Positions 15,773 through 19,288 of a DNA stretch of 64,000 nt are shown one piece after another. Made by a program: the position numbers and the translations under genes. The notes beneath the pieces were generated by a model that searched no databases, was not told the origin of the DNA, and was given only the letters and a program-made list of their open reading frames with translations. The first letter of the stretch is position 1; the number at the start of each line of letters is the position of its first letter. Location: NCBI RefSeq assembly GCF_000186265.1, contig NC_014934.1:1178001-1242000 (forward strand), given 5' to 3'. This DNA comes from Cellulophaga algicola DSM 14237. Its GTDB lineage: Bacteria > Bacteroidota > Bacteroidia > Flavobacteriales > Flavobacteriaceae.

Positions 15773-18700
15773 TTACCCTACTATATTGATAATTTTACCA
15801 GGAACAATAATTACCTTTTTAGGTGCTCTTCCTGCTAATTGTTGTATTGTTTTTTCATGAGCCATTACTGCTTCTTCTATCTGATCTTTAGTAAAATCCA
15901 TCGGAAGCTCTAATTTAAAACGCATTTTTCCATTAAAAGAAACTGGATATTCTTTACTACTCTCTACTAAATGTGATGCTTCAAACTTTGGAAACGGTGC
16001 TGTAGCAATAGATGCTGTATGTCCTAATTTACTCCATAATTCTTCCGCGATATGTGGTGCGTAAGGCGATACTAAAACAATTAACGCCTCTAGCACTTCT
16101 CTACTCGTACATTTCTGTGCAGACAGTTCATTTACCGCAATCATAAAGGTAGATACCGAGGTATTAAATGAGAAATTCTCAATATCTTCTTGTACTTTCT
16201 TTATGGTTTTATGCAAAGTTTTTAAATCCTCCCCCGACCCCTCCGAAGGAGGGGTGTTTGTTACGTAAAAAGCTCCATTTTCTCCAGAATGGTACAAACG
16301 CCATAATTTTTTAAGAAAACCATGAGTACCTGTAATACCAGCTGTATTCCAAGGCTTAGATTGCTCTAATGGCCCTAAAAACATCTCATACAAACGCAAA
16401 CTGTCTGCCCCATACTCTACACAAATACTATCCGGACTTACCACATTGTATTTAGATTTAGACATTTTTTCTACTTCGCGAGAAACTTTAAATTCCCCTC
16501 CCGACCTCCCCGAAGGGGAGGAGTTCTCATCGTAAAACTCACCATTGTCCAAAATAAAAGTAGCATCCTTATACTCTTTCCTCCAATTTTTAAACATTTC
16601 AACATCTAATTCATCTGAAGCATTTACAAACGATACATCAACGTGCGTTTCGTAATAATTTCTGGAATTATTCTCAATTACAACTTTTCCTTTTAAATTT
16701 AATTTCTCTATTTCTTTTTCAATTATAGAGGTTAGCTTCTTATCAATCGATAAAACAAAATCATTATGTTCTTGTTCTTCGTTATTTTTAACATCTCCAT
16801 AATAAACCCTAATGAGCTTAATTACGTCATTAGAAATAAATGTATTTTCTAAAATCTTATATTTATCACTCAATTCATCAATTAAATCCAACTCTTCTTG
16901 TGTAAGATCCACATCAGAAAATCTTGAAATATTATAACCCACTCTATGAACAAAAGCACTTGTCCCCGTAATCATTCCTTGATTGATCAGTTTTTTAGCA
17001 AACTCGTTTTTAGGCACTACCCCTTTATCAAACAAGAATTTTTGCCAAAAACGAGCATATAATAAATGTCCTGTTGCATGCTCACTACCACCAATGTATA
17101 AATCTACATCTTGCCAATAGTCCATCGCCTCTTTAGAGAATATTTCATTCTCATTATTGGGGTCCATATAGCGGTTAAAGTAGAAACTACTCCCCGCCCA
17201 ACCTGGCATGGTATTTAATTCTAAGGGCCACACCGTGGCGTTATTTATCTTACTGTTATCTACAACCTGGTTAGAAACCGTGTCCCAGGCCCAAACGGTA
17301 GCATTCCCTAATGGTGGCTCACCAGTTTCGGTGGGTAAATATTTTTCTACTTCTGGTAATGCAATTGGTAAATGCTTCGCATCTATCATTTGCGGCATAC
17401 CATCTACATAATATACTGGGAAAGGTTCTCCCCAATACCGTTGTCTGCTAAAAACAGCATCACGCAAACGGTAGTTAATTTTCCCTTTTCCTTGTCCTAT
17501 TTTTTCCAATTCATAAATTGCTAATTTCATCGCTTTTTTATACGGCAATCCGCTTAAGAAATCAGAATTTGCAATTACAGTTTTATCTTTATCAGCATGT
17601 GCTTCTTCAGAAATATCTACGCCTTCAAATACATTAGGAATAGCTATATTGAATTTTTTAGCAAAATCATAATCACGCTGATCACCACAAGGCACTGCCA
17701 TAACCGCTCCTGTACCGTATCCTGCTAAAACATAATCACCAATCCAAATCGGAATCGGCTCTTTGGTAAAAGGATGCTCTGCATAAGCCCCCGTGAATAC
17801 TCCTGAAATGGTTTTAACATCTGCCATACGCTCCCGCTCGCTACGTTTTGCGGTTGCCTCAATATATGCATCTACCGCTGCTTTCTGCTCTGGAGTGGTT
17901 ATTTTAGCTACCAACTCATGCTCTGGCGCCAGCGTCATAAAAGAAACTCCGAAAATAGTATCAGGGCGCGTGGTAAACACATCAATCCCCCTAACCCCCG
18001 AAGGGGGAACTTCCTTGCTAATTGCAAGCTCATTTGTTATACTTTTTAAGACTGTGTCTAAATCTCCTATAACTTCTTCATTCGTAAAACGAATGACTTT
18101 AAAACCTCTAGCATTTAAAACATCTGTACGTACTTGATCTGCCTCTTTTTGAGTATCATGAATAGCCCCATCAACCTCAATAACTAATTTCTTAGAAAGG
18201 CATACAAAATCAACTATGAAATCAGCAATTAGATGTTGTCTTCTAAATTTATCTCCACTATTTTTCCCTTTCAAACTTTCCCACAACACAGCTTCTGCCT
18301 CTGTAGGATTATTTCGCATCTCTTTAGCTTTTTCCAATAATAAATGCGAATTATTACCCCCAGTCATATACCCAGGAGCAGTTCCCTTTCCTTCGGAGGG
18401 GGCTAGGGGGAGGATTTGAAACGTTACTGAAGCACCTTGACTTCTACCAATCCAATTGGTTTGTGAATCTTTAAGCGGTTGTGGCCAATCTACCGTAGTC
18501 AAATCATCTAACAAACGTTGTGCATATGCAGAAATTCGCATACTCCATTGTGTCATTTTTTTACGGATAACAGGGTGACCACCGCGTTCTGAAACTCCGT
18601 TTACAATCTCATCATTTGCTAAAACCGTACCTAATTCTGGGCACCAGTTCACTTCAGTTTCAGCCAAATATGTTAACCTATATTGTAAAAGTAATTCTTG

Positions 18701-19288
18701 TTGCTTTTTAGTGTCAAATGCTTTCCACTCCTCTGCCGTAAAAGCAATAATATCTTCATCAGAAACAGCATTTACTGTTGCATTACCTTCTTTTTCAAAA
18801 AGAGCAATCAATGTAATTATGTCTTCTGCCTTATTAGAATTATTATTATACCAAGAGTTGAACAACTGAATAAAAATCCACTGTGTCCATTTATAATACT
18901 CCGGAGTAGACGTACGTACTTCTCTACTCCAATCAAAAGAGAAACCAATTTTATCTAATTGCTCTCTATATCTTTTAATATTAGTTGCTGTAGTTGTTGC
19001 TGGATGCTGCCCTGTTTGAATAGCATATTGTTCTGCTGGCAAGCCAAAAGAATCATATCCCATTGGGTGCAATACATTAAACCCCTTATGTCTTTTATAA
19101 CGTGCATAAATATCACTAGCAATATACCCTAACGGATGCCCAACATGGAGTCCTGCTCCAGAAGGATAAGGAAACATATCTAAGACATAAAACTTTTCTT
19201 TATCAGAATTGTTCTCTGCTTTAAACGTTTGGTTTTCTGCCCAATATTTTTGCCATTTGGCTTCAATTTCTGTGAAATCGTAGTTCAT
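15773..19288 (-). CDS. leuS: Leucyl-tRNA synthetase with in-frame nuclease-domain insertion
   Basis: Charges tRNA-Leu in the cytoplasm. HVGH is at residues 48-51, the editing-site TTRPDT at 439-444 and KMSKS at 941-945, so the catalytic core, editing domain and anticodon domain are all present. At 1171 residues it is far longer than typical bacterial enzymes (roughly 800-950). Residues 292-435 are an extra DUF559 nuclease-like module lying just before TTRPDT. Residues about 783-880, between GTSAFVHR and THVDVSFVNASDEL, are longer than I expect for this group. Residues 921-932 and 1011-1022 are translated palindromic repeats. The frame is unbroken throughout, and as leuS is normally essential the enzyme is presumably active. 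Confidence 0.95.
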   Translation of the reverse strand: MNYDFTEIEAKWQKYWAENQTFKAENNSDKEKFYVLDMFPYPSGAGLHVGHPLGYIASDIYARYKRHKGFNVLHPMGYDSFGLPAEQYAIQTGQHPATTTATNIKRYREQLDKIGFSFDWSREVRTSTPEYYKWTQWIFIQLFNSWYNNNSNKAEDIITLIALFEKEGNATVNAVSDEDIIAFTAEEWKAFDTKKQQELLLQYRLTYLAETEVNWCPELGTVLANDEIVNGVSERGGHPVIRKKMTQWSMRISAYAQRLLDDLTTVDWPQPLKDSQTNWIGRSQGASVTFQILPLAPSEGKGTAPGYMTGGNNSHLLLEKAKEMRNNPTEAEAVLWESLKGKNSGDKFRRQHLIADFIVDFVCLSKKLVIEVDGAIHDTQKEADQVRTDVLNARGFKVIRFTNEEVIGDLDTVLKSITNELAISKEVPPSGVRGIDVFTTRPDTIFGVSFMTLAPEHELVAKITTPEQKAAVDAYIEATAKRSERERMADVKTISGVFTGAYAEHPFTKEPIPIWIGDYVLAGYGTGAVMAVPCGDQRDYDFAKKFNIAIPNVFEGVDISEEAHADKDKTVIANSDFLSGLPYKKAMKLAIYELEKIGQGKGKINYRLRDAVFSRQRYWGEPFPVYYVDGMPQMIDAKHLPIALPEVEKYLPTETGEPPLGNATVWAWDTVSNQVVDNSKINNATVWPLELNTMPGWAGSSFYFNRYMDPNNENEIFSKEAMDYWQDVDLYIGGSEHATGHLLYARFWQKFLFDKGVVPKNEFAKKLINQGMITGTSAFVHRVGYNISRFSDVDLTQEELDLIDELSDKYKILENTFISNDVIKLIRVYYGDVKNNEEQEHNDFVLSIDKKLTSIIEKEIEKLNLKGKVVIENNSRNYYETHVDVSFVNASDELDVEMFKNWRKEYKDATFILDNGEFYDENSSPSGRSGGEFKVSREVEKMSKSKYNVVSPDSICVEYGADSLRLYEMFLGPLEQSKPWNTAGITGTHGFLKKLWRLYHSGENGAFYVTNTPPSEGSGEDLKTLHKTIKKVQEDIENFSFNTSVSTFMIAVNELSAQKCTSREVLEALIVLVSPYAPHIAEELWSKLGHTASIATAPFPKFEASHLVESSKEYPVSFNGKMRFKLELPMDFTKDQIEEAVMAHEKTIQQLAGRAPKKVIIVPGKIINIVG
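16227..16255. repeat. GC-rich palindromic repeat, solo copy R1 in leuS
   Basis: Core ACCCCTCC-GAA-GGAGGGGT (16237-16255), preceded by TCCTCCCCCG. It is strikingly GC-rich against its AT-rich surroundings. It is translated in leuS as NTPPSEGSGED and keeps the frame. It has the same architecture as R2-R4. Confidence 0.8.
16493..16524. repeat. GC-rich palindromic repeat, solo copy R2 in leuS
   Basis: Core CCTCCCC-GAA-GGGGAGG (16505-16521), preceded by TTCCCCTCCCGA. Translated in leuS as NSSPSGRSGGEF just before the VSREVEKMSKS segment. Same orientation as R1 and R3. Confidence 0.8.
17985..18010. repeat. Terminal palindromic repeat R3 of the leuS insertion
   Basis: Reads ATCCCCCTAACCCCC then GAAGGGGGAAC on the plus strand: a CCCCC/GGGGG palindrome around CGAA. 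Translated in leuS as VPPSGVRGI. It is the inverted partner of R4. Confidence 0.8.
18381..18416. repeat. Terminal palindromic repeat R4 of the leuS insertion
   Basis: Reads GTTCCCTTTCCTTCGGAGG then GGGCTAGGGGGAGGAT on the plus strand; its reverse complement aligns with R3 (ATCC-CCCTA-CCCC-GAAGG-GGAAC). Translated in leuS as ILPLAPSEGKGT. Opposite orientation to R3, which makes the pair look like terminal inverted repeats. Confidence 0.8.

Follow-up and report, generated by a model that had tools for sequence, protein, structure and literature searches.

The window analysed here is a 64,000-nucleotide stretch of the Cellulophaga algicola DSM 14237 genome (contig NC_014934.1, positions 1,178,001 to 1,242,000; genome G000 in the comparisons below). 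It contains a leucyl-tRNA synthetase (LeuRS) gene, leuS, carrying an in-frame insert that is bounded by palindromes and encodes a DUF559 nuclease domain. The features, in window coordinates, are as follows.

15773..19288, minus strand: leuS, leucyl-tRNA synthetase ORF, 1171 aa (ORF listing, Pfam, genome search)
16229..16253, plus strand: short triplex-type palindrome standing alone, in frame in leuS (TPPSEGSGEDLK)
16496..16520, plus strand: short triplex-type palindrome standing alone, in frame in leuS (SSPSGRSGGEF)
17957..17974, minus strand: TTRPDT editing-site motif, LeuRS residues 439-444, immediately 3′ of the insert (sequence reading)
17987..18413 (about), minus strand: inserted unit, from palindrome to palindrome (arm search and comparison with empty alleles)
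17987..18007, plus strand: gene-3′ outer palindrome, CCCCC-TAA-CCCCC-GAA-GGGGG, in the opposite orientation to the gene-5′ one
18026..18334, minus strand: DUF559 (PF04480) nuclease domain, LeuRS residues 319-421 (Pfam, profile, predicted fold)
18158..18211, minus strand: candidate catalytic residues D360, E371, D373 and H377 (conservation among modules)
18384..18413, minus strand: outer palindrome at the gene-5′ end, CCTCCCCC-TAG-CCCCCTCC-GAA-GGAAAGGG

The LeuRS frame is uninterrupted over its 1171 residues, and the HVGHP, KMSKS and TTRPDT motifs were all read as intact. A genome search with LeuRS found no second LeuRS in C. algicola; a second DUF559 gene aside, the other matches spanned at most 110 residues at no more than 38% identity. 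Pfam places PF04480 between LeuRS domains (115.5 bits against a cut-off of 20.6; E = 1.3e-33), in line with the in-frame DUF559 module proposed by an initial annotation made from the sequence alone. The three catalytic candidates named there, D360, E371 and D373, are present at those positions, H377 being equally conserved, and the insert does lie just ahead of TTRPDT. Its bounds had been given as 17985-18416; the inverted palindromes are real, and the unit itself is a few bases narrower. The domain was also said to have no start of its own, which holds in part: an in-frame ATG occurs at M308, within GYMTGG, yet no stop codon follows the domain, so that DUF559 can be produced solely as part of LeuRS. 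The insert junctions, read as FQILPLAPSEG...PPSGVRGIDVF, carry no splicing residues, and no intein domain appeared in the Pfam scan, as expected from the annotated lack of splicing motifs; identity as an intein was rejected on both grounds. An assembly artefact was likewise rejected, because the structure recurs in many independent isolates, some of them with one-contig genomes.

The palindromes at the ends of the unit share a particular layout, in which a pyrimidine arm and its complement are accompanied by a mirror copy of the pyrimidine arm outside, as in CCCCTCC-CGA-CCTCCCC-GAA-GGGGAGG at 16496. The two C arms of the gene-5′ outer palindrome are perfect mirrors and its G arm has two mismatches, while the inverted repeat arms at 17986-17999 and 18398-18411 (14 nt) are 93% complementary. 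No match to the C-rich palindrome arose in 100 shuffles of the window. Across 218 informative hairpins of 245 distinct ones, the mirror match was 0.833, against 0.676 for order-shuffled arms and 0.663 for a direct copy, and 74 of the 218 had perfect mirror arms against 5.3 expected, counts that are non-independent because many of the loci are related. By this layout the palindromes correspond to the mirror-arm repeats capable of intrastrand triplexes (PMC4666352). A chance palindrome was rejected on the shuffle controls, the mirror-arm excess and the proximity of DUF559 to the motif. As single-stranded DNA, two of four elements in the window folded better than shuffles (z = -2.41 and -2.35) and two did not (0.76 and -0.89); folding of the gene-5′ outer palindrome was no better than that of shuffles. 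The two short palindromes standing alone in leuS were absent from the initial description. A peptide similar to that of the 16229-16253 palindrome occupies the equivalent place in four genomes (G017, G008, G006 and G264), and in G264, which belongs to another genus, the DNA motif is also found there. Strict pattern searches of the C. algicola genome returned few repeats, because the arms vary.

Comparison with relatives indicates that the leuS site is usually free of the unit. We searched 18 Cellulophaga genomes, 17 of which have a whole leuS (G013 was excluded, its leuS being truncated by a contig end); the unit is present in three (G000, G001 and G011) and absent from the other 14. In ten of these empty congeners the stretch from F290 to F438 takes up 33 nt (e.g., AVFQVKDHDEVIDVF), against 441 nt in the filled gene, a net gain of 408 nt or 136 codons. 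In the remaining four (G005, G012, G014 and G008) the stretch is 45 nt long and contains another palindromic repeat, ATTGCGAGCGAAGCGAAGCAATC or one close to it, whose translation is ASEAKQSH. The loop is empty in G010, the nearest relative of G001 on the host tree. At the level of the family, the site region was matched in 138 of 140 genomes, as one match in 118 and as two split matches in 20, the latter reflecting a longer insert that is not always DUF559; in 60 further family leuS loci the loop was often short and sometimes held other repeat peptides.

Several other sequences occupy the same loop. The unrelated repeat ATTGCGAGCGAAGCGAAGCAATC, read as ASEAKQSH or similar, stands in frame before TTRPDT at L039, L041, L045 and L048 in congeners, near variants of it occur in the LeuRS loop of other genera (L173, L174, L178 and L181), and the repeat-like peptides LVQHD and HSELVSES are found ahead of TTRPDT elsewhere. 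Several repeat families thus seem to share this loop as a hotspot. In the LeuRS loops of L135 (G130) and L136 (G019) there is an in-frame degenerate DUF559 whose ExD motif is altered and which lacks the palindromes; these modules are decayed or repurposed.

Our analysis of the nuclease domain points to a conserved active site. Among hosted modules, D360, D373 and H377 were retained in 45 of 45 and E371 in 44 of 45, and in a second count the four candidates were invariant in 50 of 50. Module dN/dS ranged from 0.04 to 0.15 in eleven pairs and that of the host from 0.11 to 0.15 in six pairs, all of LeuRS, with many pairwise dS values above 1 and near saturation; these ratios indicate purifying selection on the nuclease module. 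A module profile matched 3hrl (E = 1.5e-29) and 3r3p, the catalytic domain of I-Bth0305I (E = 6.7e-8). The AF2 model of the module (pLDDT 84.4) retrieved 3hrl (1.4e-6), 3r3p (8e-5) and 1vsr (0.0097) in Foldseek, and the predicted fold is of the EDxHD/Vsr endonuclease type; a model of the whole LeuRS was poor (pLDDT 64.5, pTM 0.40) and was set aside. The PADLOC defence library gave no match for the module except a weak homing-endonuclease model (E = 8.7e-5), and identification as a defence gene was rejected for that reason. A DUF559 gene has been placed in the EDxHD homing family (PMC9403480).

A search for copies at other loci, as suggested in the initial annotation, found many, in about a dozen host proteins. 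Similar units lie in frame in MetH, RecG, IleRS, ValRS, PurL, RecJ and a UvrD-type helicase, and are fused to HemD, HisD, IspF and Gmk. In a profile search PF04480 was found in 143 of 299 family genomes, and 45 of the 150 matches listed, out of a larger number, belong to frames at least 340 aa long. Classed by motif, 40 loci with such frames comprised LeuRS (16), HemD (9), MetH (7), RecG (6), IleRS (1) and HisD (1), with the RecG rows from G180 and G078 standing outside these 40. The LeuRS-hosted unit occurs in at least 18 of the 299 genomes, G000 and G011 included. In the best 80 of at least 559 relatives from named genomes, a set biased towards the LeuRS query, 79 are in frame in a host nameable by motif, reading or Pfam: LeuRS in 49, the UvrD-type helicase in 15, RecG in four, IspF in three, RecJ and ValRS in two each, and PurL, MetH, IleRS and Gmk in one each, leaving one without an assigned host. 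Of these host calls, 48 of those for LeuRS and all for RecG, MetH and IleRS were made by motif and the others by reading, and Pfam confirmed twenty hosts from both sets, at least one per named protein. The ValRS insertion lies just ahead of TTRPET, the counterpart of the LeuRS site. The annotation had allowed for an old fixed domain, with all close relatives filled and no copies elsewhere; this does not apply, because empty sites are common and copies are present at many loci. Two of the loci call for separate mention: a unit in the LeuRS of a Paceibacterota MAG (L259) may be a binning error, and a 495-aa frame from a Sphingobacteriales MAG (L224) has repeated palindrome-like peptides (PHNPPLPPEGGSINGN) before its DUF559 domain.

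The MetH locus L090 of G231 carries two DUF559 units at two sites within one frame. The copies align from AGCCCCCCnnCCCCCAAAGGGGGAGC to its inverted partner, with the alignment lost outside, and show 81% DNA identity and a dN/dS of 0.04. In Cellulophaga, the MetH site is empty in 16 congeners (read directly in eight of them) and filled in G013, with no match in G014; LeuRS and MetH are the hosts for which empty orthologues were checked. At both, a few native codons give way to the unit, and neither site showed a target-site duplication.

The descent of the modules follows their insertion sites. A tree of 52 of the 74 module rows, the remainder being identical or overlapping, requires 8 changes of host label, where the least possible is 7 and the shuffled mean is 30; on this tree modules group by insertion site and not by genome. 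HemD (100/99), RecG (97/83) and MetH, including the second copy (100/99), each form a clade, and the one module from IleRS branches as the sister of the RecG clade. The LeuRS modules need four changes, with a B clade (99/93) that includes G011, A rows that are largely unresolved, and L114 apart. Five genomes (G142, G163, G161, G231 and G264) carry the unit in two kinds of host, and within each of them the modules of the two sites do not group together, IleRS excepted. On a LeuRS host tree of 90 rows, sampled to include carriers and without three of the 60 family loci (L137, L147 and L176), which departed from the site pattern, presence of the unit needs 18 changes against a shuffled mean of 19.2, and 133 of 500 shuffles were as low. 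The three congener carriers hold two diverged module lineages: between G000 (A) and G011 (B) the module distance is 0.71 and the host distance 0.16, a 4.5-fold greater divergence, which counts for more than one arrival.

The association of DUF559 with such repeats extends beyond the hosted units. Among 118 distinct DUF559 copies with flanks, a hairpin lay within 200 bp on the left in 76, on the right in 62 and on both sides in 44, against 0.023 expected per side, using a finder stricter than that for triplex motifs. The triplex finder, applied to 73 named loci, detected at least one motif in 69, on both sides in 42 and not on both in 31, while leuS loci without DUF559 yielded four triplex motifs in 179.8 kb. 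Seven of eight inverted repeat pairs within 300 bp are oriented like the ends of the unit. A covariance model, R1 (21 sequences, 6 pairs), matched repeats in 15 of 28 DUF559-carrying Flavobacteriaceae genomes (27 with three or more DUF559 plus C. algicola with two) and in 4 of 27 DUF559-free ones, some of them so classed by their absence from the 143 listed carriers (Fisher p = 0.004). The corresponding totals were 95 and 10 matches and include the repeats bounding the units themselves. The model favours C-rich 29-nt forms, the repeats of L002 not being among its matches, and the search over more than 40 genomes used stricter filters, with at most 135 candidates scored per genome.

For other phyla, we examined 14 DUF559 loci from a plasmid collection with 36 such records; some of the 14 share a strain or genus. 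Allowing one mismatch per arm, 11 of the 14 loci had a triplex motif no more than 300 bp from DUF559, against a mean of 0.09 and a maximum of 1 in shuffles. The motif flanked DUF559 on both sides in three loci (Sphingomonas L281, Pseudanabaena L283 and Deinococcus L284) and on one side in eight, E. coli among them; no motif lay within 300 bp in Sinorhizobium, Photobacterium and Methylobacterium. At the E. coli locus (L277), in the order sapF-ycjD-fabI, ycjD is the DUF559 gene and two triplex motifs lie downstream of it. It was matched in 3365 of 5426 E. coli genomes; a control E. coli genome gave no PF04480 match, although ycjD is annotated in the species. A clean empty ycjD site was not found, the one ycjD-lacking strain inspected having other genes beside fabI.

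Several known systems resemble the unit in part. Rickettsia palindromic elements likewise are palindromes that entered unrelated genes in frame and remain part of the protein; they are about 150 bp long and encode a conserved peptide (PMC10969869). In-frame palindromic DNA in unrelated genes, with empty orthologues for LeuRS and MetH, is equally what we observe here, but the Cellulophaga-type unit encodes a full nuclease domain, for which the accessible part of that account has no counterpart. The TM/TMECO repeats, earlier called PIT, consist of a hairpin with a third arm, and two types of inverted pair are described (Holder et al. 2015, PMC4666352). They are abundant in E. coli, cyanobacteria and Neisseria, and TMECO triplex formation has been reported in vitro (PMC4666352). 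The pyrimidine arm, its complement, the mirror third arm and the short loops all recur in the present palindromes by sequence layout; the E. coli motif, however, is described in the accessible text as always intergenic and without mobility genes nearby (PMC4666352), whereas here it bounds a nuclease frame and sits within coding frames. REPtrons and CGTC-tagged REPs likewise comprise short tagged palindromes and inverted pairs, with copies in ORFs, some of them co-located in orthologues (PMC3733652), but they carry a tyrosine transposase, whereas the unit in the window carries a Vsr-like nuclease, DUF559 alone, with no Y1 tyrosine transposase inside it.

I-Bth0305I and Vsr match the module in catalytic-domain sequence and fold. 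I-Bth0305I belongs to a phage group I intron, and the PDB name of 3r3p is "mobile intron protein". It has a long DNA-binding part (PMC3943268), unlike the DUF559 unit, which comes without intron, intein or further domain. Inteins are similar in lying in frame in conserved enzymes, often near active-site motifs, with a homing-type nuclease; the unit differs in having neither splicing domain nor junction residues, and the insert appears to stay. The intein-like persistence proposed in the initial annotation is a fair analogy. In literature searches directed mostly at non-subscription journals, the titles on DUF559 included none on in-frame insertion, and none were found on in-frame palindromes in Bacteroidetes or on a LeuRS with an endonuclease domain. 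For triplex repeats joined to DUF559 or ycjD, only Holder et al. (PMC4666352) surfaced, the accessible part of which names neither.

In our view these results probably reflect a mobile unit that carries a nuclease and is retained in essential proteins, without splicing, as an additional domain. What the sequences provide is a bounded unit, empty sites, in-frame copies in multiple proteins, a duplicate within one gene, lineages linked to sites, purifying selection on the nuclease, kinship with a homing endonuclease, and triplex-type repeats close by in several phyla. The unit would consist of a Vsr/EDxHD-type endonuclease frame and two inverted palindromes of triplex layout, all read through in frame. 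It would enter tolerant loops or ends of housekeeping enzymes, displacing a few native residues, and stay there as an extra domain, its ends encoding Pro/Gly/Ser-rich linkers. The nuclease may nick or cut the palindromes or the empty allele, and repair from the filled copy could spread the unit through gene conversion resembling homing, while new sites would be entered only rarely, via the palindromic ends. In essential genes only in-frame copies would survive, and the host's need for an open frame would then shield the nuclease from frameshifts and stops. The full-length protein is presumably made and active. Lone palindromes and inverted pairs could be non-autonomous remnants of the unit.

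The same elements might instead have spread independently of the nuclease, by a RAYT/Y1 transposase, slippage or recombination acting on the palindromes, with DUF559 as cargo kept by chance. Lone in-frame repeats without DUF559, repeats in four of the 27 DUF559-free genomes, and nuclease-free palindromic families entering the same LeuRS loop in frame are all compatible with this, as are five Y1 transposase matches in the C. algicola genome, one read as RAYT-like by length and context. A RAYT-driven repeat is not favoured, however, because that gene is flanked by a different palindrome. DUF559 also recurs next to the triplex-type repeats of several phyla, and almost every hosted copy keeps the active site, a conservation that a mere passenger would have no need of; we regard an origin as cargo as unlikely.

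One or a few ancient entries per site, followed by vertical descent and made patchy by loss through recombination with empty alleles, fit some of the results poorly: presence of the unit changes 18 times on the LeuRS host tree, the congeners G000 and G011 carry different module lineages, and one MetH has acquired a second copy at another site. On the other hand, the MetH, RecG and HemD modules each form one clade, and module and host distances were correlated among all 19 carriers (Mantel r = 0.33, p = 0.0125) and more closely among 14 A-type LeuRS carriers (r = 0.435, p = 0.002), but less so once close groups were thinned (r = 0.24, p = 0.19, n = 10). No recent transfer was detected among the compared carriers; close pairs co-diverge with their hosts (dS for G000/G001 of 0.83 in the module and 0.66 in the host), the lowest module/host distance ratio was 0.52, and no module pair is much closer than its hosts. 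With such parallel divergence of module and host, old insertions and many subsequent losses could explain much of the pattern, although as a full account we find this improbable. Least credible to us is a domesticated domain, with the nuclease serving the host enzyme or the cell through regulation, through contact with RNA, or as a trap for phage that interfere with the essential enzyme. Close relatives do without the module, the host proteins are functionally unrelated, and the defence library returned only the weak homing-endonuclease model, even if purifying selection in step with the host, and the G130 and G019 LeuRS that keep an in-frame module lacking palindromes and altered in ExD, as if retained for some other reason, fit such a role.

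Persistence of a mobile nuclease unit inside host proteins remains the reading we prefer, and the occurrence of the same kind of unit in many enzymes hints at a novel form of mobile DNA, one that endures as a component of host proteins. Selfish DNA that, rather than splicing out, forms a permanent domain of tRNA synthetases, DNA repair helicases and metabolic enzymes would be a rarity, and the filled, duplicated, decayed and empty states are all available to compare. A broader proposal, which we put forward tentatively, is that DUF559 may be the missing mobility enzyme of the TM/PIT repeats, with repeat-DUF559-repeat units autonomous, inverted pairs MITE-like and single repeats scars; the Bacteroidota units would then be permanent, unspliced, active nuclease domains inside essential proteins, and such units would form a class of selfish genes sheltered by the reading frame of the host. 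A nuclease gene bounded by triplex-type repeats in Bacteroidota, and lying beside them in other phyla, makes the question directly testable.

Some minor observations concern the C. algicola genome itself. Five equal-scoring triplex-type repeats found with the covariance model (G000:C1 25037, 880801, 1326341, 2995108 and 3003367) are perhaps parts of a longer repeated segment. The RAYT-like gene (L272, G000:C1:1737802) stands between its own palindromes, GCTAGCGCGAGCGTCACGCTCGTGCC, and four equal-scoring Y1 transposase genes (L268-L271) look like IS200 copies. Within LeuRS, both the length and the sequence of residues ~780-935 (16484-16951, minus strand), between GTSAFV and VEKMSKSK, are hypervariable from congener to congener, in contrast to the remainder of the protein.
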